From Ceratodon purpureus (taxonomy: Eukaryota; Streptophyta; Bryopsida; Pseudoditrichales; Ditrichaceae), in NCBI GenBank assembly GCA_014871385.1, contig CM026428.1, positions 5,869,471 to 5,933,470 on the forward strand: 64,000 nt of DNA, in the 5' to 3' direction. The position numbers were made by a program, and so were the translations under genes. This document shows positions 28,105 through 57,800 of the stretch, one piece after another. Under the pieces are notes generated by a model, which was not told the origin of the DNA, searched no databases, and was given only the letters and a program-made list of their open reading frames with translations. The first letter of the stretch is position 1. Each line of letters starts with the position of its first letter.

Positions 28105-28113
28105 CATCAACCC
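28105..28113 (+). repeat. Left 9-bp target-site duplication of the MULE
   Basis: CATCAACCC directly abuts the left TIR and is repeated exactly after the right TIR at 41985-41993. Nine bases is the standard duplication length for Mutator-superfamily insertions. Confidence 0.95.
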
Positions 28114-28356
28114 GGAGAACGCTAAATGCCATGTAGTGGTGGCGGGCCCGGCCGTCGCCCGCCAGCGTGGAAGGCCACGTCGCGTGTCCCGTTTTGCCCG
28201 CGATCGCGCCGAGGTAACTTTTCCTGCGTCACGGAACACTGAGGTCTCCTCCACCCGAGACACTGGGTCGGGGCGTGACACAACGACTTGTGACACTGCC
28301 ACGCTGGCACACCCTAGAACTGACCGGAAAAAAAAAACTCTGTGACGTCACGATGA
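28114..28356 (+). repeat. Left terminal inverted repeat of the MULE (243 bp)
   Basis: It begins GGAGAACGCTAAATG and matches the reverse complement of 41742-41984 at 239 of 243 positions. It is GC-rich over its outer 200 bases and contains one GTGACACT octamer (28290). Its inner end carries the palindrome GTGACGTCAC. Confidence 0.97.
28342..28351. promoter_or_regulatory. GTGACGTCAC palindrome at inner end of left TIR
   Basis: A perfect 10-bp palindrome containing TGACGTCA, the canonical site for plant bZIP (TGA/CRE-type) factors, about 170 bases upstream of the transposase ATG. The same palindrome occurs in the right TIR at 41747-41756, upstream of the divergently placed protease gene. A role as a promoter element or transposase site is inferred. 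Confidence 0.6.
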
Positions 28357-28521
28357 AAAACGACTGTACAACAGAGTCACGATGTCACTACGGCTTCCAT
28401 TCGGACAATTTAGGTCTCAGGGTTTAGGTCGTCTCTTTCGAGGTTTGAATTGCGTCTGTATGTGCTTCTTTGCCCGTTTTCGTAATATGGTTTTGCCTGA
28501 TCTGTGTGCTTGCCGTGTGCA

Positions 28522-31500
28522 ATGGAAGCTGTACCAGAGGTCAGTGTAGGAGGCGAGGAAAAGGTCCGTAGTCAAGGTGATGGTCGTGTGGACTCAGGGA
28601 ACGCCGATATACTGAGACAGCAATTGTCGAGTATTGAAGATCGGGTTCAGTGCCCCCCCCCGGGAGTCTTTGGTCCCCGTGATTTGAAGTGGGAGTTGGA
28701 GTATCGCCCTCCCCGTGGAGAGCACAAGAAGAGCCATGTCGTTCAGCAGTGCTTCATCCCAACTTATAGAGTGGTTGACTTTGTCGATGGCATGCAATGC
28801 GGACGTGAAGGGGCGCAATGCAAGTTCAGGCCTAACAAGGAGAATAGACGACTTAATTTGTCGAAAGGTGGGCCTCGAGCTGCTCTTAATTTCATCAGGT
28901 ATGAAACTTCTTCCCATTGTACGTTTAGTGTTCCTTTCTTACATCTGTAATCGCACCCATGAGACTGCCATGCCATTTCTTCGTTTAATGAAATGGTGTT
29001 TGAAATACTCGTTTTCCCTGTGCTCTGGGGCCGCTGGATGTCTCGCCCGTTTGAAATGTCCGCTTTTAGGGTTCACTGTCACGGGCTACTGCCGATCACT
29101 TGATGCAGTAACGTAAATTGTAGGATGTCACTTCCATTACAATGAAGGAAGAACATAGTCACTACAGAACGATTGGCCACTCACATTCTCATATCGTGTT
29201 GTTATGGTAGATATAAATGCGAGTATGGGCCAAAAGATTACTCAGGAATTGTTAAGCCAATCACGGAGGAATTGCTGGCTAAGCCGAGAAAGAAGCTGCG
29301 AAAGCCCGATGTACCTGCTGAGGGGAATTTGGTTGCGCCCACTAGAAAAGCAAGAGCTAGGCGGACGAAGGCAGCCGAGGGAAGGAAGCCCCCTCGAAGA
29401 TTTAAGTCAAAGACTCCAGCTGCCACTGGCGATGCCATGGACTCGACGGTGGAAAATCCGGTTCAGTCACCGAAGAAACGGAGGGCGAGAAAGAAGAAAG
29501 CATGTACCGTACAAGCTGCTGAGCCAGATGGAGGGAAGGTGGGATGCTGTGCTACCATGCTCCCGGACTTGAACGAGATCCCCATTCCATGCGAGCCCGA
29601 AGTCCCACCTCAGAAGGTCGTTAAGAAACGGGGTCCCAGGAAGAAGAAATCCGACGCACAGGGAGAGCCCGTGGTCGCTGTCTCTACCAGTGTCACAGTA
29701 ACTGGGGTTCAAGGTAAACCTACTAAAGGCCGGGTGTCGAGGAAAAAAAAGGAAACAGTACTTGAAAACGGTGACACTGACCATCACTCTTGTGATTTAG
29801 GGTCACTGTCCGCGCAGTTGGAAAGCGATGCACTGTTGAATACAGGTGGAGGGCCTTCTCTTCGCGGATCCTCCACGGTCTTAGTGGACGATGTGGGCTC
29901 AATTGTTGACCCCCCCGAGTCAACTCCTCCGCCGAGATTGCAGGCTGCAACCACTAGAAAGGCCCGGAAAGTCACCAAGAAGAAGACGGCGGTAAACGTA
30001 GCACTCGAGAATCAAACGCCCCGACTGCTGCCTGAGTGCTTTCTTACAAGTGACTCACAGATGCCTACGGCAGCGGACATTGGTCCGATGCTCTCTGCGC
30101 TCTGTGACACTGCTGGAGGACAGGGTTGTACCGAACATTGTCAGGGAGAGGTAGTGGATCCCGACGAGGCACTCCCTTTCGAGCTCGGCACTGGAAAAGG
30201 TGACTGTACTGCAGGTGCACTACCACGGAAAAAGGGTGTAAGGGACTCAAAAAAAAAATGGGGAGGGTCTATCAAGCGAGGCTGCCTGGCCCAGTTCACT
30301 GTAAAAAGTTTGTTGTACTTACCGCATGTCTCAGAAATCTGTATTATTCAGGAGAAACACGTGAACTCGGACGGCTTGGTAGTGCATGGAGGGATGAAGG
30401 TCGGGGATAGAAGTGCATTCTCAGCACATCTATCACCGGAAATACGCGCATTCGTGGAGGACTGTCTCCGGAGAAAGGATACCGTCAGCCAGATAATGAG
30501 AAAGCACTTGGATATGTTAAAGAAGTACCAGGCTGAGGGCAGGGACATCACCAGGGATTTGCTACTGTCTACGAAAGACATTCGAAACATCTCTGGGAAA
30601 CTCGCACAGGAAACATATATGCTTCACAAGAACGACGCACAGAGCGTCAGAATGTGGGTGCAGAGAAACCCCGAAAAGGTGTTCCATTACACAGAGTCTA
30701 ACAAACATAAACCCGTACCAGTACCTGGTGAATTAAACGGACAGAATATGCCATTTACCATAGGAATACAAACACCGTGGCAGAAGAAGATGATGCTCCA
30801 ACATGGACACCGTGGAGGTATCTCCGTTGATGCCACATTCGGGACTAATGATAAAAAGGTACGCTCTTTACACACCTCAATTAAGTGTTGTCCAGTTCCG
30901 ATCCGCACACTGTCCTCGCTCTTATTAATACTGATCGAAGTTTTTTTCGAAAATGTGACATTGTGACACTGTTCACTGTCCGTGCTTTATGAATCGGTGA
31001 CACTGTCATGGAACTGTACTACGCTGACGGTGTATTCGTTTCTCTGATGTAGTTCCCGTTGTATACACTCATGGTCTTCGATGAGTGGCACAACGGTGTG
31101 CCGGTGGCTTTTATTCTCACGTCCAAGTGTGCGGAGTCAGACTTGAAGCCCTGGATGGTTTCTCTTAACGAAACGATGATAGCCGAGCAGCCAGACTGGA
31201 AACCCTCAGCATTCATAGTGGACTGTGCCCAGGGAGAGATTAATGCAATCAAGTGAGTACCACGTCTATAACCTACCCTGATATGTGCATAATTCCCGTT
31301 GAGTTGACGTCCTCTCGTTTTCAGTGTCACAGTTCTGGTCCGGTAAAGTATGTAGGCCGTTTATACTCAACTCAGTCAATGGTAATGTAACAGCGACACT
31401 TGGCCCGAGACCGCCATTTTCTTGTGCCTCTGGCATGTGCGTCGAGCGTGGCAGAAGAATGCTTGCTACAAGATCGCAGATTTGCCCCGTAGAGCCGCTA

Positions 31501-32549
31501 TCTTGAAGGAATTGGGGATGATGATGTACGACCGCACTTCTCCCCCAGGAGAAGACAGCAAGTCCTGGGCGGAGTTGAAGATCGTGGAATTAGAGAAGAA
31601 ATTCCCACAGGAATCCGAGTTCTGGGAATACATGAAGACTCAATGGCTTGATAAAGTACACATGTGGGTAGTGGGTTATAGGAACTTGTCCTATTGCGGA
31701 CAGGACACAAACGCGGCCATAGAAGGGTACCATGGTTTCACAAAATCAATTTTACGATCCGAGAGAAGCAGGATGACAGGTCGAAGGGTGGACTGGTGTA
31801 TCACTGCATTAACAGAAGACGTCGTTGATCATTACTGGTACAAGGATTTGCGGAAAGAGAAAGGATTTATTGACAACAAGAAATGTCAAGACACAGTGGT
31901 CGATTCTATTCTGAAGGCCCGGGCCATTCCGGATGATGACGTGACATTACCACTACATGAAGGTGACACTGCATTAGTCACGTCCACCGAGCACAGGCAT
32001 CTGCGATACACTGTGCATAATCCTGGATCTGAGTGGGGGATGTGCACCTGTGTTTGGGCGCAGCGTGGCAACATGTGTAAACACGATGTTAAGGTTGTAA
32101 TCATGATGCACCCAGAGATTGCCGAAGGAACCATAGCCCGTTTTTGCGGACGGTTAGCTGGTAACATCAACGGAGGACTACGTCAGCTTCTCACTCCCCA
32201 ACGTGTGCAGCCACTACCAACAGTTCAGATTGAGACACCTTACTCAGCTGCGTGCCCGTCACCTCTGAAGCCAGTGTCACAGAACTTAGAAGAGGTTCTC
32301 AGTCAACAGGTCATACAGCTCGGGGAAGAGGTGAAAGGTGACACTGTTCTCATGGAGCATCTTGTTGCTGAGTTCAATCAGACACTCGGAAAAATTAGAA
32401 GAATGAAGGCGGAAATAAAAGTGGGTGCCTTGCATCCTATGGAAGGGGCGCCCGTGTTTACTCCCGTAGATGACGGTCAGGGTTTTAAATTGGCCAGGAG
32501 GAGAGACTTCCTTGAGAAACCGAAGTCGCATGTCGTCAGACGTCTTTAG
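28522..32549 (+). CDS. MULE transposase with SWIM zinc finger (1126 residues)
   Basis: Exons 28522-28898, 29211-30858, 31053-31252 and 31394-32549 join in phase to 1127 codons without a stop. The catalytic Asp/Asp/Glu set of the MULE nuclease is visible: Asp in SVDATFGTN (about residue 666), Asp in FIVDCAQGEINAI (about 732) and Glu in TNAAIEGYHG (about 852), with the conserved CLWHVRRAW between the last two. A SWIM zinc finger, CTC then CKH (CxCx8CxH, about 959-972), follows. The N-terminal part has Cys-containing segments and long Lys/Arg-rich linkers (KKRRARKKK, KKRGPRKKK). It should bind the TIRs and excise or integrate the element. The last intron's acceptor (31392-31393) was chosen because it alone restores frame to the CLWHVRRAW exon. 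The start at 28522 is the first ATG downstream of the TIR in frame. Confidence 0.9.
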
Positions 32550-32738
32550 GGTGAATATATGTCTTCATCAATATATTACGGGCAGTACTAAAAGCTTCAC
32601 CGGTAAGCTACCTTTAGGGTTCTATATAATAAGAAATGCGAGAAGTGATTCATTCACTTCGAATGAGGGGACGTAGTGTTTTCTTCACAGCACCCACAGT
32701 CGCTTCAGTCATCCGAGGTCGACGGTCGTAACGGAATC

Positions 32739-33155
32739 ATGCGTCGATTCGATTTTGTACTTGTAATCGAGATTTCTGAGGAGGTCCTATGTTTACTCTT
32801 GTCGTGCTGTTTTCTTTGCGCGGTGTTTTTGATTTTCAGAGGAGCTGAGAGATGGGTTTTCTTCACGCGTTCCCCGGCGGCGCACAGAGTGCGATCGATG
32901 AGTACTGGGAGTAGGGCGCTCCGGAATGTGGGTGAGCGTGCGAGGACTCGAGGTTCGAGACGTCTCCACGGAAAACCACCGACGACTCCATCCCACGAGA
33001 AGGTCCACTACGCTTGTCAATGCACCAGTGCTGCTGAAGAAGTAGGGGGGGACGTTGGTGGTGGTGCCCAAGGTGAACTGAACTGGGTCCTGGAGCAATT
33101 CTACGGGGGGCTATGTGAGGAGGAGCTCCACAACATGAGCGCATTCAGTTCGTAG
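32739..33155 (+). CDS. Small ORF in the MULE, 138 residues, unknown
   Basis: It lies 190 bases after the transposase stop. It starts MRRFDFVLVIEI, has one strongly hydrophobic stretch (VLCLLLSCCFLCAVFLIF) that could be a membrane segment, then an Arg/Thr/Ser-rich middle and a Glu-rich end. A TTTTCAG acceptor-like site inside the hydrophobic region suggests the downstream part alone could be an exon. No family is recognised. It may be a third MULE gene or a fortuitous ORF. Confidence 0.3.
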   Translation: MRRFDFVLVIEISEEVLCLLLSCCFLCAVFLIFRGAERWVFFTRSPAAHRVRSMSTGSRALRNVGERARTRGSRRLHGKPPTTPSHEKVHYACQCTSAAEEVGGDVGGGAQGELNWVLEQFYGGLCEEELHNMSAFSS

Positions 33156-35442
33156 AAACGGGAATCCCTGATGACAGGTTATGTTAGGCAGCGCAGGGGT
33201 GCTCTGTTGTATGCTACGTGACACTGAAACGTCTACCGGCCTTTCCTACTTTAAGATATAGCCGGTAGGACAAACTGTGCTTCTTCTGCTTAGGCGTTTG
33301 GAAATATTTCCACGCATATATTGGAGACTCGCTTCGAATACAAGTGTGACACTGCCATTTCCGTAGATGTCGGATTTCATTGTCTACCGCATTTGAGAAA
33401 TTCTTCCCTCCTCCCCACTTAATTTGCACACGCCTCTCGTTGATCACGCCTTGTTCGACGCCTATGTTTATGTAAACGGTATCTGAAACGTCTTGGTCCA
33501 CGACTCACTGTTCAGGGATTCAGTGCCACGGAATGCGTACAGAAGATAGACGGAATGTTTCTAAACTATGGATGTTCTGAACGGATTTACAATGGACTCT
33601 ACGAATCTTACCAGATAAAAGATATCGCAGTTCCATATTCTACCGTACAGAATTATTGTTCATTCATAGTAATTAAAGAATATAAGACTAATCAATATAA
33701 ATTTGTATCATGTAGAGAACATAAAGATAAATATGCCACTTTACCAAAAAAACTAAATGGAATCCTAAATGGGTGTGTTCGAATGTATACGTATTTCTTA
33801 TAACATGGCGAAATATTTCGAGCAGACTACCCGTTCTTGAGAAGGAAATAACTAATATTATGATAATTTTAAGAAAGGTTAGTGACCTAACTTCTATATA
33901 TTAAAGTTTTAAAATTTGTGAAACGATAATATGGGAATACACTTCATTTGTTTATCTATAAAGGTAAGACGATTTTTGATGGAAATTAAAATGGTCTTCT
34001 AAAGAATAGATGACTAAGTAATGTCAATTCGTGGCGTGTATTATAAAAAAAAATAGGTTGCACATTTTTCAAGAATAAAAACTAGTTCCTATCATAAATT
34101 CTTTTATGCTTGTAGGGAAATATTTCAACCACACTACCCTTCGTAGAGAAGGAAAGAACTAAATCTCTAATAATTCTTAGAAAAATTAGTGACCTAAATA
34201 TTAAAGTTATAATTTCTGTGCAAAGATAATCGGGGAATTGACTTCATGACGTTCATGTATAAAGGTATGACGAATTTTGATAGAAATTAAAACAGTATTA
34301 CGATTGAGATACAAGACTGCGCGATAATACTATCGGATAAACTTAGTTATATTCGATAGATTGATAAATGGAATTTTAATAAGATGACCTCTTCCACAAC
34401 TCGAATAATCTAAATATTAAGTGTAGATAACATTCGTATGTAATGGGGGGTAAAGAATTGGAAATTTAGAAATCCTCAAGCGATCTACAAAAGCGGAAGT
34501 AAGTACTCGGGTATTCAATGGAAGAGAAAAATATACTCAAAATATACACAATCGAAGATTAGAATTTATATGAATACAAATACTATACTATAAGAAGGGG
34601 GGGGGGGTGTTCTTATTGTTGGGAAGGGATTGTGTTTAAGTAATATGATAAAGGTTCTTCATATTTTATTGAAGTGGAGAGTGGACCATAAATTTTCAGA
34701 AGAACACATATGAACGGTAATGTAAACGGTGTTAGATAACAGAAAGAGAAGAGAAAGTTTTAAAAAAAGATTAATGGTAAACTTCAGGGATGCATATTCG
34801 GATAAACTCTCGGCAGTAGTTCTTAGTGAACAAAAGGAAAGATCAGCTCGGTATGTGAGGTGCAGCAAAAGTGAAAGGACGCAGACATACTTTTATTTTT
34901 TGAAAAACAATTCACGGGTGGGAGGTGGAGAAGAAACAGAATTTTACTACATATTCAAAGAGAAGAAGACTGTGCTAAAGAATTTGCGGAGATGTGTGGA
35001 GAGTAAGTCAGAACGGTAGTGTAACAGGCGACGGTCTCCTCGTACCCTTAAAATAATTATGATCGTGATACACAGTGTCACACAAGTGACCTCATAACAC
35101 AGTACCATATGAGAAGGGAAGCTTTACTGTGACACTACGAAAGACTCTTGCCATGAACATTTTCGGTAAGCATTAGAAAATTACATATACAGTATCAATA
35201 TTAGATCGGTATAATCCTCATAAAACGAGTCATCGTTATCGTTCCACTGCATATCGGAAGTCCACGGTCGAAGTATGCAGTACCCGTGACACTACGGGAT
35301 GGGTGACTCTCTGAGGTAATGACTGTGTGACACTGTGAAGTCTGGAACACTACTACTCTTGTCTTAACCTTCAACTGTACTGAACTTCCAATAAAGTCTG
35401 CTCTGAAATGATTTGAGGGCAGTTGTCGACTGTACTTCATCG
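33156..35442. other. AT-rich spacer between the two convergent MULE genes
   Basis: It contains no recognisable gene. It holds a diverged internal direct duplication (33810-33993 and 34117-34293), an 11-base G-run at 34597-34607 and six copies of the GTGACACT octamer near its ends (33218, 33346, 35074, 35129, 35286 and 35327). The composition is far more AT-rich than the flanking coding parts, suggesting a separate origin. Confidence 0.6.
33810..34293 (+). repeat. Diverged tandem duplication, ~180-bp units
   Basis: 33810-33993 and 34117-34293 share an ordered series of matches: GAAATATTTC, ACTACCC, GAGAAGGAAA, TTAGTGACCTAA, TATTAAAGTT, TATAAAGGTA and GAAATTAAAA. Substitutions and small indels separate the copies, so this is an old duplication compared with the near-identical TIRs. 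Confidence 0.75.
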
Positions 35443-38400
35443 TCAGTCGTTCTCGAAGCTGAGTTCGTCCTCATCTGAGTCGCCTGGCTTCAGAAGCCCT
35501 TCACCTGAAACACACATGGGAGCCCTATATCGAGCATCACGGCGAGATACATCAAGCTCACGGCCTAGCAATGCCAAAATCTGGATGTTAATGTCTTTGG
35601 CCTTGAATCGCTCCAGTAACTTCGTCTTCAGGCGTGCCTCTCTGTCATCTGCATCAAGAGCATGGAACTGAAGTACAGTCGATGTTAGCAAGAGTAATAA
35701 ATAGAGCCATGATCAAAAACAGAAAAAACAGCGACTACGTGTAGCAAATAGAAGTATAATGAGGGTGCACCACCTTCAAGTACAGTAGAGCATTGCGGAC
35801 TGTATGGTGCCCACATTCGTAGTTGCCAGGCTGCTGACTCACTTCTTCCTCCACCACTGGTACATCGTAAGATTGGACTCCTCGTAAGCATTGCCAACCC
35901 CTGCATATACTCTTCACGAACTCTGCATCCAATCCCTTTGGACGGTGACACTCGGCCTTTTTGTAAGAGTCGAAGTGTATCACTTTATCATATTGGAAAA
36001 CCAGTAAGGACCAATGGTCGTGAGCAACCCACGGGACAAGGATCTCCTTCACCTGGTGGATTTGAACAGGAGTAGGTGGCTGCAAGAACGTCCTCGCCCA
36101 TTTCTCCAAGGTAGTGCTTCCTTTGATGAGGCTCTGTAGACAGGAACTCACACGAGAGGTAACAAATAGTATTTCGTGGCGGCGTATGCTAGGGTACTGG
36201 AAATACAACCTAGACATAACAAAGTCTACTACGTCATTTCCAAGGCGGGTGCGTACCCGCTTGAGATCATGGATGGCTTTAAACCTAACCTCCAGCTCTT
36301 TCCCTTTCTCATTGAAGAATACCACTGCCTCTGCTCCGTCTTTCTTGGCTTCACAACCGGGCAGTACCATGAGGAGCTTGTCTATGTGTAGGTAATTGAA
36401 TGCCTGGGGGATATTCATAACACCTACATCGCCGATTGGAACAAGAGAGTAGTCCGGCCATGGTTCTGTCGTTGATCCATAGAGTCGTTTTGGCGACATA
36501 GGAGCACTACCCCAGGATGGCACTGGGGTAACAGATGGGACTTGGGAGTCTGCTGCATGTGAGAGAATCTGCAAGGCGGGGGCATGATCTCCTTCGCTGA
36601 CTCCGTCTTCTTCGAAGAGCTTGCTTAAGTTCCGGACTGTCGATATGTCGTCGAGAGACCCTGATCCAATGCTCACGGATGTTACAATTGAAATCCCTTT
36701 GTAAGGTGTCTGTAGCGATTCAGCACCTGGTTCCTTCACCCATTGTCCGAAGCTAGGATCCTGTGAGAATGTTCCGCTTGCCAATCCCATATCGTGACCC
36801 GAGTGTGCTGTGTTCTGGAACTGGCTCAGAGTGAGGAGGGAGTCCGTTGTTGGTGATTCCTGTTCAGCCATTAGTTCTTTCATCTCGGGGAACACAGGTG
36901 GGGGTGCTTCTCCAAGTGTTGACTGGCCTTGAGTGCTGAGTCCAGATCCCACCTCAAACCCGACTTCAGCGACTGGATCCTGTAGTGCCTCCGAATAGGG
37001 ATCACTAATGACCACTTCACCATGTATGTCCTCCTTAATCTCCAAAGCCGGTAACGTGTCCGTGGTCATCCCCTTCGTGACACTACAGTAGTCCAATGTC
37101 ACATTCTCGATTTCGTCATGTCCCGGATTCAGGCCTTCAAATCGAACGTCCCCCTCAGCCCCGGGTGTCTCTGTTCCATCCGCCGTCACACTTTCGTCTG
37201 ACCCCCCCGGATGTGCGTCATGGTGTGCTTCCAGTTGTGGTTCCGCTGCCTCGCACCGAGTATGTACATCGTTCACTTTGCCAATTTCGCACTCCTTAGT
37301 AAGTGCGACCTTCCCCTCCTCCGTCAGGCCACTCTGTCCTGCGGGCCCCAATCTATCCTGCCCCATATCCTCGGCAACCCCAGTAACGCCACGCACCTCT
37401 TCTGGATTATTATCATCCACTGTAGCATCTGTGACACTAACCACACTCTGTTGTGACACTGAAACCGTAGTGACAGGAGCAGAGTCCAGAACCACCCCGT
37501 CGAGTCCTGTCAGTGTCACAGGTTCTACATGCTCCCCTACAACATGAAGCTCCACACTGTTGAGAGTGGTCGACTCGTGGGGCTGCGGTTTCTCCATCAT
37601 GAATGTCGAGTTCCTGCTCATTGGATTAGACATTGCTGGTACCTCCTGGTTTCTCCCCCCCATGGTCACGCACACTCTCCAGTGGTAGTCGTCTTCGACC
37701 TCTGTCGCCACTCCTACATCCTGCACCAAACTCCTAATTTTTAGCTGAAGTGCACCTACTCTAGGGGTCCAATTAGGAGTATCAGCCGTTGGCACGAACC
37801 CGGCGTCGTGCTCTTCCCGAATACGGAGAGTCTGCGACCAGATCCTCAAATGTTCAGACCAGTCCGCGTGGTCCACTGTCTCCCACGCCCCAATGAACTC
37901 TAGCGGCTGGCAAACTGCAAATTCCTGTAAAGCCCTCAACTGCACTGACCGGATCCACTTCAAGACGACTTCAATAACATCTTCACCTCGACTGTCTGCC
38001 ACGTCACGGATGTGTTTACCGACAGTATCCCTCAAGGAATCACCCAATGAGAACGCCAGATTCGCGTAATGGTAGGCTCCTTCATAGATGAACATAGTGA
38101 GAGCCTTTTGTAGCTTCCACGGTTCCTTGCATTCCCCCCGAATGACGCCCTCATGCAATCCATACGTCGGACATGCAAGCTGCCTGTACAGCCCGTACTC
38201 GTTACGGAATAATGTTCTGAAGACATACAGTAGAGGTTCGGGCACCTCTCTTTCAGTCCGTATCGATTGTAGGACGGCCCTAACTTCTTTAGCCTCCGCC
38301 ACTGTAGCAAAACATAGTCATTTACAAATCAGTCGTACACTGTAGGAATGTAGCATTTCAGAAATTATAACAATCATTATGAAAACTTCAAGTTAGCCCA

Positions 38401-40635
38401 CGTAAGGAAGGTTACCATCATGTCGCCAAGGTAAGGGGGGTAGCCTCCGCAATAAGTCGTCGTCCTCGCAACATATCCGCCAAATAGGGCACCACCCCCA
38501 TACCACCTCTTCCACTAGCCGCCCATTCTTAGTTCTGAAATCGTTTCTGCCTCTTCGAATCAGATCTTCTTTCCTCTCGTACAAGGCAGCCTCGTACCGT
38601 TTCAACTCCTCCTGAAATGCCGCATAGTCGAATGTCCACTGTACGTATACTTTCAGCGCCTCCAGATCTTCGTACGGCACATCATTCTCAACGCTTTGCA
38701 CCAAGGAATCTATAGAGGAGGTCACTGCTTCTACTATCTCGACAGGGAGAGGGTTCGCCTTGTCACCCTGCACATTACAAGACGCATGGTCTGTCACATC
38801 CCTAGATCGTGGCACTGCTCTGGACCAAGAATAACTCTTCCTCAAAACTGTGACACAGAATTCAACGACCGAATACATAACGTGACACAGAACCGTAGGT
38901 TTAGCTAGAAGGGAAATACCTTTCTGCGTATCCACCAGTACGCACACCTCATCAACTTATCCTTAAAGTCATCTGTCTTCACAACGGTAGTCCAACGTTC
39001 CACGAAATCCTGCCCGCTTTTACACTGCCAACTCCATGGCAGCGTAACCTGCCCCTCGAATTGGCGGAGGAGATACAGTGGAGGCATTATCGGCTTCGAC
39101 GGGCAAAGTGGCTCGATGAAATCCTTCTCAGCTCCTCCGATATTTCGAAGAAAACGGTCCACGTGTGAGTTCTCTAGCTGAGATAACAGTCTGGATCTCT
39201 CCCTAAAGCGCTCCTCCAATTCAGGGTGGAAAGTTAATGGCAAGGGAGTACCCTTCCCGTCGGCCCAGAAATCATGTAGACGCCCGTTCCCTCTCCACTC
39301 GTCCTTGGTTATGACCATCGCCGGGAGTCTCTCCTCCACCAACTCAGGCGAAGTGGGATCCGTCTTGTTGAGCCCGCAAGTGGGAACAGTGTCACTGACA
39401 TCCATCGCCAGGGGACTGTGACACTGCATAGATTGCAAGGCAGTGTTACAAGTTCCCTGGAAATTCAATCCCACAGGTATTCCAGCCGCCATCGAAGTAC
39501 ACCCGTTACAGTCAACATTAATACTAGAAGCTGGGACCTCATCAGCAAATGTCACAGTCTTAGTTTTTTTAACTACGTGACCTACAACTCGTGAACCCCT
39601 AAATATCGGCAACCTAAACCTATCCCGAAGCAAGGATATGGCCCTCTCTTTACTGTCTAGGGGATCCTTGAAGATAGTACGTACCTCCATAGCTGTATCG
39701 AGTCTATCAGACGACTCTTCGATGACCCTACACGGGGGCGGTGGCCTAACAGAGACGTGGAAAGTAGCGTCTTCCGGGTCAGCCTTTCGCTTCTTGAGCC
39801 CGGTGGTCCCTGCTCTTGTTATCCGTTGGCCAGCAATGTCTCCAAGTACTACGACCTCTTGCACGGGATGGCGGTCGTTCTTCAATTTTTTCACTGCCTC
39901 AATGTGCGCCACCATATCAGTCTGAACTGTCTTCTTCTTTACCGAGCCAACATCTGTTGCTGTCACATCCTTCCGCCCAGGGTAGGCCGGTCCAGGACTG
40001 CCTTTTCGCTTCTGCTTGGTTGCAGGACCATTGCTTGGCTTATCCTTCTTCCCCTGCTTTTTTTCAGATGTCTTCTTAGGCGGAGCTTCCTTCCAGAACA
40101 GGTCGGCGGGTGGTAAGGTGGCTGAGGGAGTCTGACCAGTACGAGAGGGCGCTCCGTCTTTGTAGTCGTCGTCCTCGAATAACTCCTCTTCGCCTATATC
40201 TTCATTGAAGCCCTTCGCAGTCGCGTCCTCAACGACCGCCCGTGGATCAGCTGAGTCCAGTGTCACAGAGTCACAAGTGACTGATCCTCTCCCACCGACA
40301 ACGACACCGACCTTAGATAGGACCTCGATCTTCTTACCCTCTCCTTGTTTGAGGTCAGGATATGGGAGGAGAAGCGCACTTCTACCGTCCGGATACCTCG
40401 CCTGTGGACAGCCTTCGACAAACCTATGACGGTTTAGCATCATTTTATTGGAGAAATGATTAGAACTGCAGTGGATGCAAACGAAGAATTTACGAGCTGA
40501 TCCCGGCTTCTTCTCCCCCTTGCACATGGTCGCGAACTCCACCAGCAGATCCCTCACTCGCTCCTCGCTCGGGTAAGTAACATTATATTCCTTCCCGTAT
40601 AATACCACTCTCAGTGTCACTGGTTCGGGGGCCAT
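35443..40635 (-). CDS. MULE-borne Ulp1-like (C48) cysteine protease protein, ~1600 residues
   Basis: Minus-strand exons: A 40635-38920 (start at MAPEPVTLRVV is provisional; the frame is open further upstream with a Cys-rich CVGGC...CVLCGADC segment), B ending 38416, C 38301-35774 and D 35667-35443. B-C and C-D join in phase. The A-B acceptor is unresolved; one at about 38836 would keep frame but is weak. Exon A has a C2HC-like zinc motif (FVCIHC...HRFVEGC) and Lys-rich disordered sequence. The end of exon C carries the Ulp1 fold with all catalytic positions: His in DHWSLLVF, Asp in HFDSYK, Gln in QQPGNYECG and Cys in the same motif. C48 proteases remove SUMO or similar modifiers. In a transposon this could counter SUMO-dependent silencing or process transposition proteins; both roles are inference. 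Confidence 0.8.
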
Positions 40636-41204
40636 GTCTTCAGGTCTGTAGATATTACAGTCTGCCCCACATAAGACACAACGGGTGTCTCCCCAAGTGA
40701 TGAACCTGAATGTATTTCTCCAGCCTATCACAGAACCGCACCCTCCAACACAGAACACAACTCTGAGGTACCAATCCTCCTCTCGAAAAAGAACCTGGTC
40801 TCTACAGTCAGAATACAACCGCACACGCACGGTGAGAATGTAATGCGCAAAGGCCGCTTAGACGCAGAGTGGACAAATTAACCCTAAACCAAATCCCTAA
40901 AACTAACAGAACGGTATGCACATTGTGTAGGAAATTAGGAGATCATCGCAGAGTCTGGACTGTCCACAATGCAAACCCTAAACATACAATGTAAGTACTC
41001 TTTCGTGACTAACGTAGTGTCACACCCAAAACACCCTATAATTGCAGCCAAATCGTGCGACTAACTCGGAGAAGCCACGGCTTTGCAATGGCGGAATTGT
41101 GGCGACAGATGTAGCAAGACTGGAGAAATTCAATGACGAAGAATGCGTTGGACAGGAAAGGGTAGAAGTAGTTACAAAGAAAACATGCGTTGCTCACCTC
41201 GGTA

Positions 41205-41278
41205 TGGCCCAGTAGCGGAATGGAGACTTTGAAGCTCCGTTGGCGTCGCTCCTTCGGATAACTCTGAGGTTCGAAATC
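41205..41278 (+). other. tRNA-like Pol III box A/box B pair inside the MULE
   Basis: TGGCCCAGTAGCGG at 41205-41218 resembles an internal A box, and GGTTCGAAATC at 41268-41278 is a near-consensus B box in a T-arm that can pair (TGAGG TTCGAAA TCTCA). The spacing is about 60 bases. The flanks do not form an acceptor stem, and the D stem has a mismatch, so this is not a functional tRNA. A decayed tRNA or the head of a SINE is likelier; a short A-run at 41332-41339 might be the tail. No flanking duplication was found. Confidence 0.4.
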
Positions 41279-41741
41279 TCAAAAACAGAACCTCCCATTG
41301 TTCCGACACGATAAAAGCACGAGCAGGAAGGCAAAAAAACAACGACCTAATTCAAGGGTGAAGTATTCTTACCAGCGCCAGCTGAAATAATGCGCCCACG
41401 ACGGTGCCTCCTCCTGAAGACGTCGCCGCCGCGCTCGATGGGGGGAGTTAATTCGAAGGTCCAGCTTGAAGTCATTGCGCATTTAATTTCGCAATTGAGT
41501 GCACCGATGATGTGACGCATTGCACTCCTAAAGACAAAGGGTGCCATAAATCTCCAAAGAACACAAAACCCAACTGCAAAAGACAGACACACTGAACCCT
41601 AAGCTAACAAAACTGAAATGCTTACGACGATGCATGCCCCACATTGCGTCCGAATTTCTGAAACCCAATCAATCCGAAACACTAGACCAGAAAACCCTAA
41701 ATGATTCTGCGCCAACGGGGACGAAGGTCTACAAAATGACA

Positions 41742-41984
41742 TCATCGTGACGTCACAGAGTTTTTTTTTTCCGGTCAGTTCTGGGGTGTGCCAGCGTGGC
41801 AGTGTCACAAGTCGTTGTGTCACGCCCCGACCCAGTGTCTCGGGTGGAAGAGACCTCAGTGTTCCGTGACGCGGGAAAAGTTACCTCGGCGCGATCGCGG
41901 GCAAAACGGGACACGCGACGTGGCCTTCCACGCTGGCGGGCGACGGCCGGGCCCGCCACCACTACATGACATTTAGCGTTCTCC
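41742..41984 (-). repeat. Right terminal inverted repeat of the MULE (243 bp)
   Basis: It is the reverse complement of 28114-28356 with four mismatches. It includes the GTGACGTCAC palindrome (41747-41756) and one AGTGTCAC octamer (41801). Confidence 0.97.
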
Positions 41985-41993
41985 CATCAACCC
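41985..41993 (+). repeat. Right 9-bp target-site duplication of the MULE
   Basis: CATCAACCC, identical to 28105-28113, immediately outside the right TIR. Confidence 0.95.
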
Positions 41994-54858: not shown

Positions 54859-57800
54859 TCACGTCGCAACATCTTGTGCCATCTGCGAGTCATGTGAGTT
54901 GATATTCTCGACGACTTTGTTAACTTCATTGTGGACCTCGTCTAGGATGTCCTTGGTGAAGCAGATGGTTGGAGTGTCATCAACTTCCATGTTCTGATCT
55001 GTTGCGTCCTTTTTATCATGTGTGGGATCTGTCAAACAAAGATCACTGGTATTAACTTCAGCACCAGTCTGCACAACGGCAGGCAATGGTCCCACTGTTT
55101 TGGTCGACAAGTCACAAGCAGCGGTCTTCTTTTGAATATATTCTCTCAGCAGACTGGGCCGAAGCTGTCCATGCCGATCCTGTTTTAGTTTTACACACCA
55201 CATAAAATGCGTTCTGAGCTGCACGGTCGGGAATTCAAGGTCTAAAATCAATCAAGAGTGGGTGTAATAGCTATGTAAAGAGAAGGTGGGAGTGAATAAA
55301 AGTGAACCTTCTTACGCAGCGCTGCATGCCAATGGTTCTTGATGCTGTTGTCAGTTCTTCCTGGCAGCATCTGCATCGATCAGGATGCAAACGAAAAAGT
55401 ATGAAATAATTACGCTTGAAATTAACAATGCAGCAACGACTGGTTAGTGGACAATGCCTGCAGCCAACCTGGCCTTGCATTACTGGCAGCTGGTTCGTGC
55501 ATTGGTTGAGATTACAAGCACCCTCGTTCACCATAGATTAAGTGTGTACACACTGCGCTTGCTAATCTTGTTGAATCATTAGGACATGAATGAATAAGCA
55601 TGCATTAGCTGGAAGACCTTTAAACTAGACTAAGAGCATTCAGTAAAGCAAATGCTAATCCTGACTTGACTTATCCAAAATGCAACCAAAACCATACATG
55701 TAGTACTGTGTCAGTTTGCTCTCCAGTGTCTTACCAGGCATAATGGCCAGTGTGCAGGTCACGCATGCTTGTAAGTAAACTGCTACGCTAACGCAATGTT
55801 TTCAGATGAGAATTCACACAACATGGTACCTGTGCCCCCATCAGTGCAAGTGGAGAATTTTGTCTCCAAGGCTCTCGAAACATTGATTCAAGATTAATAA
55901 GCATAGCAAACTACACAGATCTCTAACTTTAGCCCACACACTACAATTAATCGACATCCGTCAAACCGACCTTCTAAAGGCACAACAACTTCCACGTATC
56001 CAACTAGTCAAAGTTCAACCTCCATTCTAAAGCACACCAATCGTAGTGTCACCAAATTCATATCCATCGGTGTCCACCTTGCCATGGAATCGAAGGTAGC
56101 AACTCGGGCTACTGTAAAATAATACATCCATGCAATTCAATGATTTGCTACAACACCACGCGGATGCCAAAAGAGCAAGAAGGCATACCTTTGCAATGGC
56201 AGACCATCTGTTCCCAAAGGTTGAATGCGCGTGAACAAGAAGCTCTTCTTCCTCAGTAGTCCATCCCTCCTTGCGTATATCCGGCTGCAAGTGGTTCACC
56301 CATCGTTCTCTACATTGTTTTCCGGAGCGGTCTGTTTATTCCATGTCGCCAATAACGAGGGTTTGAGCGATATATTCCTCGGTTAGTGAATATAACAATC
56401 AACTCATGATGATCGTCTCATAACACCCATGGCAAGATGTCTTGTTCGGTCTACAAGTAAGGCTTACTGGTCATAATTGGCTTTCAGGGATAACAAAACT
56501 GCGAGATTTATGTGAGGAAGAGACAGTAACGATACTCACTTGCCATGAACGTCGATATAAGGGACCAGCGCCGAGATCCATAACGCTTAACCAATTTACT
56601 CAGAACCCTATCCTCCGCAGCGCCCCATTGTCCCTTCACTCCAGGTTGCCGTTGAGTCGCGCTGGTCCTGTCCACCGGCACTAAATGTACCTCATGAATG
56701 CCATTGGGTGGTACACAGGGCGCTGTTGGATTCGGGAAATCAAGCGCTTGGTGACCACATAGTGCAAGAGCACCAACTGGCATTTTAAGTGGATGCCTTG
56801 CAATCACATATTGACTGTTTCTCCTCATCAACACATGTTGATCCTGACCAAGCAGGTTACAAAACTCAGGTGGTGGGCTCCTGCCACCTCCGTAACAACC
56901 ACCCTGATGAGAGGAGTACACCACACCTGCAGATTCTGACGGCCCGCGCGTAGCAGACTCCGGAGTCCTGACTTGTTCATGCCCTTGCATTCTACAGTCC
57001 AGGGGTTCCTTGGACACAGCATCTGGTGTATGCGCAGGCAAAGAGGGGGCATGAGAGGGCGATATGAGTTTCGATGTGATGAAGCTTGGGCAACCCTCAG
57101 AAATGAAGCTATTTAAAACGTACCGTTGGTAGAGGCAGTCACGTTCTCAGCTAAACTTGAATTCATTCCAGAGCTAGATCCGGGACAGCTTTCGGACGGT
57201 TCGAGCCTCGTTCCAGCTTCTGTTGGTGTAGGAGCGCTGATCCTCGCATCAGAAAAAGGGCCCTTTGGGTCATTCTCGGAGCTTTCGTCTCGCCTTGTGA
57301 TCACTTCGTCACTGCTCACCGACTGGCCAGGTTGGGATCCCGACAAACTCGTAGCATGTTGAGTGGTAGCTAAAAAGGATGGCTTCGGATACTGGACGTG
57401 ACAACCAGGGCTACTCTTTGTGTTGTGGATGACTGGCCGTAAGAAATGAGAGTCGTAGGAGGACATACAGCTGAAAGCACTCTGGGCTGAAAGCTGGAAA
57501 GGAGAGCTGGAACTTGGTAAGGACGTGCTCGAGCTGGACTCTCGCAAGGAGTTGAATAGGTCGGGCAATGTGGAGGAGGCTGAAGGTAGTGGAAAAGGAG
57601 TAGAAATGACTTGAGTGGCAGCTGGTGTAGGGGTTTGCTGTAAACATCGAGGTTGGTAACCTGAGGACGCTCCCACTTGACCCCACATACCAGCAACTGG
57701 CTGTAAGCCATTCCACTGCGGAGCTCCGTAGCCATCTGTAACACCAGGATCAACATTTACAAGCTGGCAGGTCATGGCAGGCACTAAGGAACTGCAAGCA

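Follow-up and report, generated by a model that had tools for sequence, protein, structure and literature searches.

In Spm and Ac, subterminal motifs serve as transposase binding sites, and the TnpA sites of Spm are 12 bp long, subterminal and clustered near the element ends. Maize MuDR has long terminal inverted repeats (TIRs) and a 9-bp target-site duplication (TSD), and the MURA site lies in the TIR; we know of no element-wide array in the MuDR/MURA system. The present work concerns a Mutator-like transposon (MULE) of the moss Ceratodon purpureus that carries 27 copies of the octamer GTGACACT over its entire length. The element, here called W, occupies positions 28114..41984 (13,871 bp, bounds from TIRs and TSDs) of the window, which is the whole stretch of 64,000 nucleotides that was analysed (assembly GCA_014871385.1, contig CM026428.1, positions 5,869,471 to 5,933,470 of the forward strand). 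W is a MULE, because it combines a PF10551 transposase with 243-bp TIRs and 9-bp TSDs.

According to passages of PMC10398659, TnpA and MURA lower methylation, MURA at the TIRs. For the VANDAL MULEs of Arabidopsis, parts of PMC5735166 describe VANC21 as binding a 9-bp motif whose density matters and separates self from chance sites. The motifs reported in those parts are YAGTATTAY for VANC21 and AGTTGTCC/AGTTGTAC for VANC6; these motifs diverge rapidly and are found chiefly in noncoding tandem repeats. In excerpts of PMC13317346, a Ulp1 domain is present in some VANC genes, and the MULEs that carry KIU are characterised as lacking TIRs and as belonging to flowering plants.

Comparison with known systems

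In its long TIRs and 9-bp TSD, W resembles the maize MuDR/MURA system. It has in common with the Kaonashi/KIU MULEs an additional gene with an Ulp1/C48-like domain, but its 243-bp TIRs set it apart from a non-TIR element and its host is a moss. The closest precedents of the octamer array itself are the VANC motifs and the TnpA sites of Spm. En/Spm belongs to the CACTA superfamily and has its sites near the ends, whereas W is a MULE whose octamers span the element. The likeness to En/Spm lies in a repeated short word; TnpA is element-encoded and, in passages of PMC10398659, linked to activation with demethylation, and for W there are candidate readers.

As with VANC and VANDAL, a short CpG-free word is repeated within one MULE family, and a related family has another word. 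Unlike the VANC motifs in their noncoding tandem repeats, the octamers of W are single and dispersed, with 15 of the 27 in coding open reading frames (ORFs). Unlike the fast-diverging VANC motifs, the octamer persists in copies down to approximately 54% nucleotide identity, and W has long TIRs and is without a match to DUF1985 in its second-gene ORFs. What is new in relation to VANC is an array that is dispersed instead of tandem, about as dense in coding ORFs and deeply conserved. We do not claim membership of the VANC group; at most, the system may work like VANC. The earlier note on this DNA had proposed an undescribed system, which was too strong, as the VANC motifs described in parts of PMC5735166 are a close functional precedent. 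Literature searches with the octamer string returned matches, none with a transposon-related title among the matches listed, and searches on moss MULEs with Ulp1, on Ceratodon with Mutator and on dispersed or internal transposase sites yielded nothing on this system among the matches listed.

The octamer array of the window element

With both strands counted, the octamer GTGACACT/AGTGTCAC has 27 sites within 28114-41984 and 28 in the entire window, the remaining 50,129 bp containing one site, at 56045. All 27 positions given in the earlier note were exact and its single outside copy was confirmed. Dinucleotide shuffles of W (n = 200) contained 0.68 octamers on average and 4 at most. The coding ORFs of W hold 15 octamers, whereas 1000 synonymous-codon shuffles gave 1.83 on average and never more than 6; composition and codon bias are thus ruled out by the shuffle controls. 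It had also been argued that the coding copies are read in different frames and that a protein repeat cannot explain them. This was borne out, as the octamers occur on both strands and in several frames, in the peptides GDT, CDT, SVT, VTL and ECH, and by gene strand 8 of the 15 are sense and 7 antisense.

The array is element-wide, as previously proposed, and not clustered at the ends. Subterminal clustering of the Spm/TnpA type was not seen in W, where 2 of the 27 octamers are in the TIRs and the others are found throughout the element. The density is similar in coding ORFs (15 per 8.42 kb) and elsewhere (12 per 5.45 kb), with the segments of the second gene taken as stop-to-stop ORFs of approximate exon limits and a few of its nine octamers possibly intronic. 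Intervals between the sites are Poisson-like, with a coefficient of variation of 1.01.

The TIR sites are located at 28290..28297 (+) and 41801..41808 (−). Transposase exon 2 contains sites at 29689..29696 (−, SVT), 29771..29778 (+, GDT) and 30104..30111 (+, CDT), and exon 4 at 31963..31970 (+, GDT), 32273..32280 (−) and 32338..32345 (+, GDT). Three sites are intronic, at 30963..30970 (+), 30997..31004 (+) and 31323..31330 (−), and six intergenic, at 33218..33225 (+), 33346..33353 (+), 35074..35081 (−), 35129..35136 (+), 35286..35293 (+) and 35327..35334 (+). The second gene carries those at 35945..35952 (+, ECH), 37077..37084 (+), 37431..37438 (+), 37453..37460 (+), 37512..37519 (−), 39388..39395 (−), 39418..39425 (+), 40259..40266 (−) and 40613..40620 (−), and the site at 41016..41023 (−) lies upstream of this gene, outside the coding ORFs. 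The second-longest gap between sites is an octamer-free, AT-rich spacer between the two genes (33400-35070), which may be a nested insertion.

Enrichment in other elements of the family

Transposase exon 4 of W gave 107 scored matches in the genome at 69-100% protein identity (from 831 first-look candidates), and the TIR-end pattern occurred 187 times, against 0 for the control. Four other full elements from the same genome, c3, c11, c1 and c6, contain 20, 32, 28 and 16 octamers, respectively, while the shuffle means for the five elements including W are 0.46-0.68. The octamer is the commonest 8-mer in W, c3 and c11, is tied with AAAAAAAA in c6 and ranks third in c1, behind two AT-repeat words. 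A pooled motif count over the five elements, from which the last 275 bp (right TIR) of each were left out, revealed 114 octamers where 3.2 were expected. Flanking bases show a preference for C at −2, T/C at −1 and G/A after the word, so that the extended form of the motif is C-Y-GTGACACT-R. The one-mismatch words GTGACATT and GTGACACA have 25 copies each, which is 6-7 fold more than expected. A few further one-mismatch words reach 3-4 fold, and the majority are scarcely enriched. A telobox-like word, AACCCTAA, is also enriched in the five elements (23 seen, 1.3 expected).

All five elements have octamers in their TIRs, and four of them have two. The octamers point inward in c3, where the 16 internal ones are 8 plus followed by 8 minus and are sense to the nearer gene, and nearly so in c6. 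Their orientation is mixed in W, c11 and c1, which rules out inward polarity as a general rule. The first 100 genome sites listed extend over about 2.96 Mb of contig C1; 28 of them belong to element c1 alone and the other 72 lie elsewhere.

Conservation, codon constraint and turnover of the sites

A region of approximately 4.1 kb around the transposase was aligned for 31 copies; 6 had 97% identity or more to a retained copy and were removed, leaving 25. Seven of nine tested W sites recur in 8-20 of the 23-24 other copies compared, whereas adjacent 8-mers average 0-13%; these sites are therefore kept far above their flanks and do not mutate at an equal rate. They are the sites at 30104 (19/24), 30997 (10/23), 31323 (8/24), 31963 (20/24), 32273 (14/24), 32338 (12/24) and 33218 (11/23). 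An octamer at 31941 is absent from W and present in 27 of the 31 aligned copies. Twenty noncoding 8-mers recur in 20% or more of the copies; 14 of them are the octamer, words overlapping it or the one-mismatch form GTGACATT, and the remaining six include a telobox-like word and a splice-acceptor word.

In the coding sites, the frequency of the commonest codon averages 0.93 across 13 octamer codons, as against 0.59 across 174 other codons that encode the same amino acids (p = 5.6e-8). The site at 31941 had been chosen for its conservation, hence the test was rerun without it, giving 0.92 (11 codons) versus 0.59 (173 codons) and p = 7.9e-7. Of 14 octamer codons, that for Pro at 32271 did not pass the filter of 75% amino-acid conservation and was left out; the Gly codon at 32337, another octamer codon, varies freely. 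The copies are related, but octamer and comparison codons were read in the same copies. As octamer codons scarcely vary synonymously, selection acts on the DNA letters and not on the protein alone. The earlier note had named two outcomes that would refute it, similar counts in a shuffled-codon control and octamer sites that mutate as fast as neighbouring bases, and neither was observed.

When sites were compared between full elements, counting gaplessly aligned sites only, 18 of 26 testable W sites were kept in c11 (66.8% identical; 8-mer background 11.9%). Beyond the transposase region, the sites at 35286, 35945, 37077, 37453, 39418 and 40259 are common to c11, that at 40613 to c11 and c1, and that at 37512 to c1. 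Elements c3 and c6 have 14 of the 20 c3 sites in common (background 35%). W and c1, despite totals of 27 and 28, have 5 of 26 sites in common (background 1.8%), a number that is approximate at an alignment identity of about 50%. Near-equal totals with few common sites indicate that the number is maintained while the places change; to this approximation, the octamers turn over in position like transcription-factor sites. Across the 31 copies octamers fall at 39 alignment positions; in a few cases, misalignment may have made one site appear as several. Per approximately 4.1 kb, the 16 copies whose exon 4 is intact have 9.4 octamers and the 14 with stop codons have 6.8 (p = 0.0055).

Other MULEs of the genome

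The other PF10551 loci examined were ten of 6.5-7 kb, L053, which adjoins L047, and two of 3 kb. Five of the ten (L047, L048, L054, L056 and L057) form a related clade: L047 and L048 matched the five elements by tblastx in segments of 24-65% amino-acid identity (best E-values 1e-50 to 1e-68), and L054, L056 and L057 match L047. The octamer GTGACACT is absent from all five loci of this clade, which have a word of their own, of the TGATGGGTATT type, with 14-20 copies per locus. These words form two clusters that flank the transposase gene, often at a spacing near 46 bp. The two 3-kb loci (L058 and L059) were tried as a third word family; both fall in the related clade and have 4 TGATGGGTATT-type words each. 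L053 contains two octamers, in DNA of uncertain membership.

The remaining five loci (L049, L050, L051, L052 and L055) had no match to the five elements in the tblastx comparison. Weak matches to the related clade, with 27-45% identity over short stretches and E-values of 3e-7 and 7e-7, show that L050 and L051 are more distant MULEs and not unrelated ones. The five loci contain 2, 0, 0, 0 and 1 octamers, respectively, and no comparable dispersed word was found in any of them. In L049, L051 and L055 the most frequent non-simple word reaches 5 or 6 copies; that of L050 has 12, at or beside its terminal repeats, and that of L052 has 8, of which 7 are within a 19-bp tandem repeat. The CpG observed/expected ratio is 0.82-0.90 in the five elements of the octamer family and 0.67-0.75 in the window flanks. 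Among seven other MULE loci it is 0.36-0.64 in six and 0.86 in the seventh.

Possible function of the array and alternative explanations

To judge from the sequences, the octamers probably, though by no means surely, constitute a selected element-wide array of putative binding sites, by which an element-encoded protein would recognise self, with anti-silencing as the likeliest role. In such a mechanism, GTGACACT would be a double-stranded DNA recognition word that is maintained by selection on transposon copies and that marks the entire element for a sequence-specific protein of its own. Candidates for this reader are the product of the second gene, which has a zinc-finger-like motif and an Ulp1/C48-like domain, and the transposase. 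Many sites over 12-16 kb could let the reader find its own family among the thousands of octamers scattered in the genome, since in a family element dozens are packed into a few kb. The reader would score the element over its length, a high local density meaning self, and its binding along the element might open chromatin or remove methylation, keeping the two genes and the ends active. Octamers in the TIRs could additionally help transposition.

Anti-silencing would be the most likely purpose of the array because of the precedents of VANC, TnpA and MURA and the Ulp1 domains in some VANC genes, and it is weakly favoured by the CpG ratios of the five elements. A reader encoded by the element would be likelier than a host factor because the related clade has another word and the distant MULEs have none. 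Of the functions suggested in the earlier note, self-recognition and silencing escape would agree best with the sequences; a spacing code is not supported by the Poisson-like intervals.

Several observations weigh against this reading. Genome-wide, the octamer occurs 14,080 times and its reversed control word 14,012 times, and it is unusual only in its clustering. Two of the nine tested W sites, at 30963 (1/24) and 33346 (1/19), are lineage-specific and confined to close relatives, and since the copies are mutually related the copy counts are non-independent events. No match to DUF1985, the VANC domain, was found in the second-gene ORFs of W at E-values up to 1. The TGATGGGTATT arrays of the related clade are strictly inward-pointing around the transposase gene, which also suits a transposase site. 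The CpG ratio is low in that clade (0.36 and 0.56 in two loci) and 0.86 in one distant MULE, so the CpG argument for anti-silencing is weak.

The octamer could be a plain transposase binding site for synapsis and excision, with internal copies that raise occupancy or control transcription and no part in anti-silencing. Octamers in the TIRs of all five elements, the strict polarity with which the related clade's arrays flank the transposase gene, and the location in transposase exons of four of five stretches of the diverged copy c3 aligned to the window by blastn would be in line with this. We nevertheless consider it rather unlikely, as the density is similar across W, the internal exon sites are synonymously constrained and end cleavage requires no such internal sites. 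Known transposase-site arrays are located at element ends, which also speaks against it. That a host DNA-binding protein, such as a transcription, replication or chromatin factor, reads a word whose sites the element has gathered appears less likely still. A short motif with random spacing does resemble host factor sites, and the second-gene product and the transposase are only candidate readers. A host factor, however, would be open to all MULEs, and a different word in the related clade of the same genome, with none comparable in the five distant loci, argues against it, as does an octamer hardly commoner genome-wide than the control word.

Action of the word in RNA (in splicing, export or small-RNA evasion) would agree with the 16 internal sites of c3, all sense to the nearer gene, but is improbable in view of the 8 sense and 7 antisense coding sites of W and of the further sites in TIRs and spacer; a strict sense-strand RNA motif is not supported by the mixed orientations in W. 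There is hardly any room for an artefact of composition, codon bias, peptide repeats or tandem duplication, to which the dinucleotide-shuffle and synonymous-codon controls, the differing reading frames and the conservation are all contrary. Moreover, what the flanks of the octamers have in common is limited to about two bases on one side and one base on the opposite side.

A more tentative idea, which we hold to be possible but would not bet on, is that the self-recognition code is unlike that of VANC: an octamer 'password' present throughout the element, coding sequence included, and perhaps of separate origin. The reader protein and the word would then have been held together for long, and the related clade in the same genome would use another password. 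If this idea is true, anti-silencing or self-recognition by word density reaches further than flowering plants and can limit the choice of codons. The octamers of the transposase gene also show that synonymous codons can be under selection at the DNA level. VANC-type systems pose the open question of how a protein made by a transposon specifically locates a long target and spares the host. The octamer family offers a clean case: the word is exactly defined, a single genome contains more than 100 transposase copies that differ in their degree of divergence, broken copies can serve as controls, and the word of the related clade is a different one.

Structure of the element and its genes

The left TIR of W (28114..28356, +, 243 bp) starts with GGAGAACGC and is 98% identical to the right arm, and arm comparison places the right TIR at 41742..41984 (−, 243 bp). 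The 9-bp TSD CATCAACCC was read from the sequence at 28105..28113 and 41985..41993. By eye, a 9-bp TSD was seen in all five full elements, and the TIRs of the other four are 241-317 bp in length.

The transposase gene lies on the plus strand and was modelled by eye with four exons, at 28522..28898, 29211..30858, 31053..31252 and 31394..32549. The spliced product of this model, 1,126 amino acids, matched PF10551 with an E-value of 6.2e-14 and 52.7 bits (cut-off 27.6), and exon 3 contains part of this MULE DDE domain. Exon 2 encodes a putative C..C..H..H region split by a Lys/Arg-rich insertion, which we take, by eye, to be DNA-binding, although it has no Pfam match. Between the two halves of this putative zinc site, the insertion contains the repeated AT-hook-like peptides KKRRARKKK and KKRGPRKKK. 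A SWIM-like C-x-C..CKHD motif was recognised by eye in exon 4, with no Pfam match to it in the window protein.

The second gene, on the minus strand, was delimited as a 5' ORF segment (38905..40857), a middle segment (38393..38956, exon limits approximate) and a 3' segment (35735..38317). The 5' segment contains a zinc-finger-like CIHC-x(n)-H-x5-C pattern, which a pattern search found in three of the five elements (W, c11 and c1). The 3' segment encodes an Ulp1/C48-like domain (DHW...D...QPGNYECG), and this C-terminal domain resembles SENP8/Ulp1, with an E-value of 0.0096 to SENP8 in a phmmer search of PDB. The E-value to Pfam C48 (PF02902) was 0.071 only, below the cut-off, and the protease-type H-D-C residues are kept in all five elements. 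The evidence for an Ulp1-like protease domain in the second gene of W is thus weak but consistent.

Two further observations concern the distribution in the genome. At the very start of contig C1 (C1:2403-3933), five octamers lie approximately 381 bp apart, which suggests a subtelomeric tandem repeat in which the word is present by chance. Contig C6 (110.5 Mb, about 30% of the assembly) holds, by eye, 61 of the 107 scored transposase copies, many with stop codons. This contig is possibly a moss sex chromosome. Passages of PMC8000587 give the sex chromosomes of Ceratodon purpureus as larger than 100 Mb.

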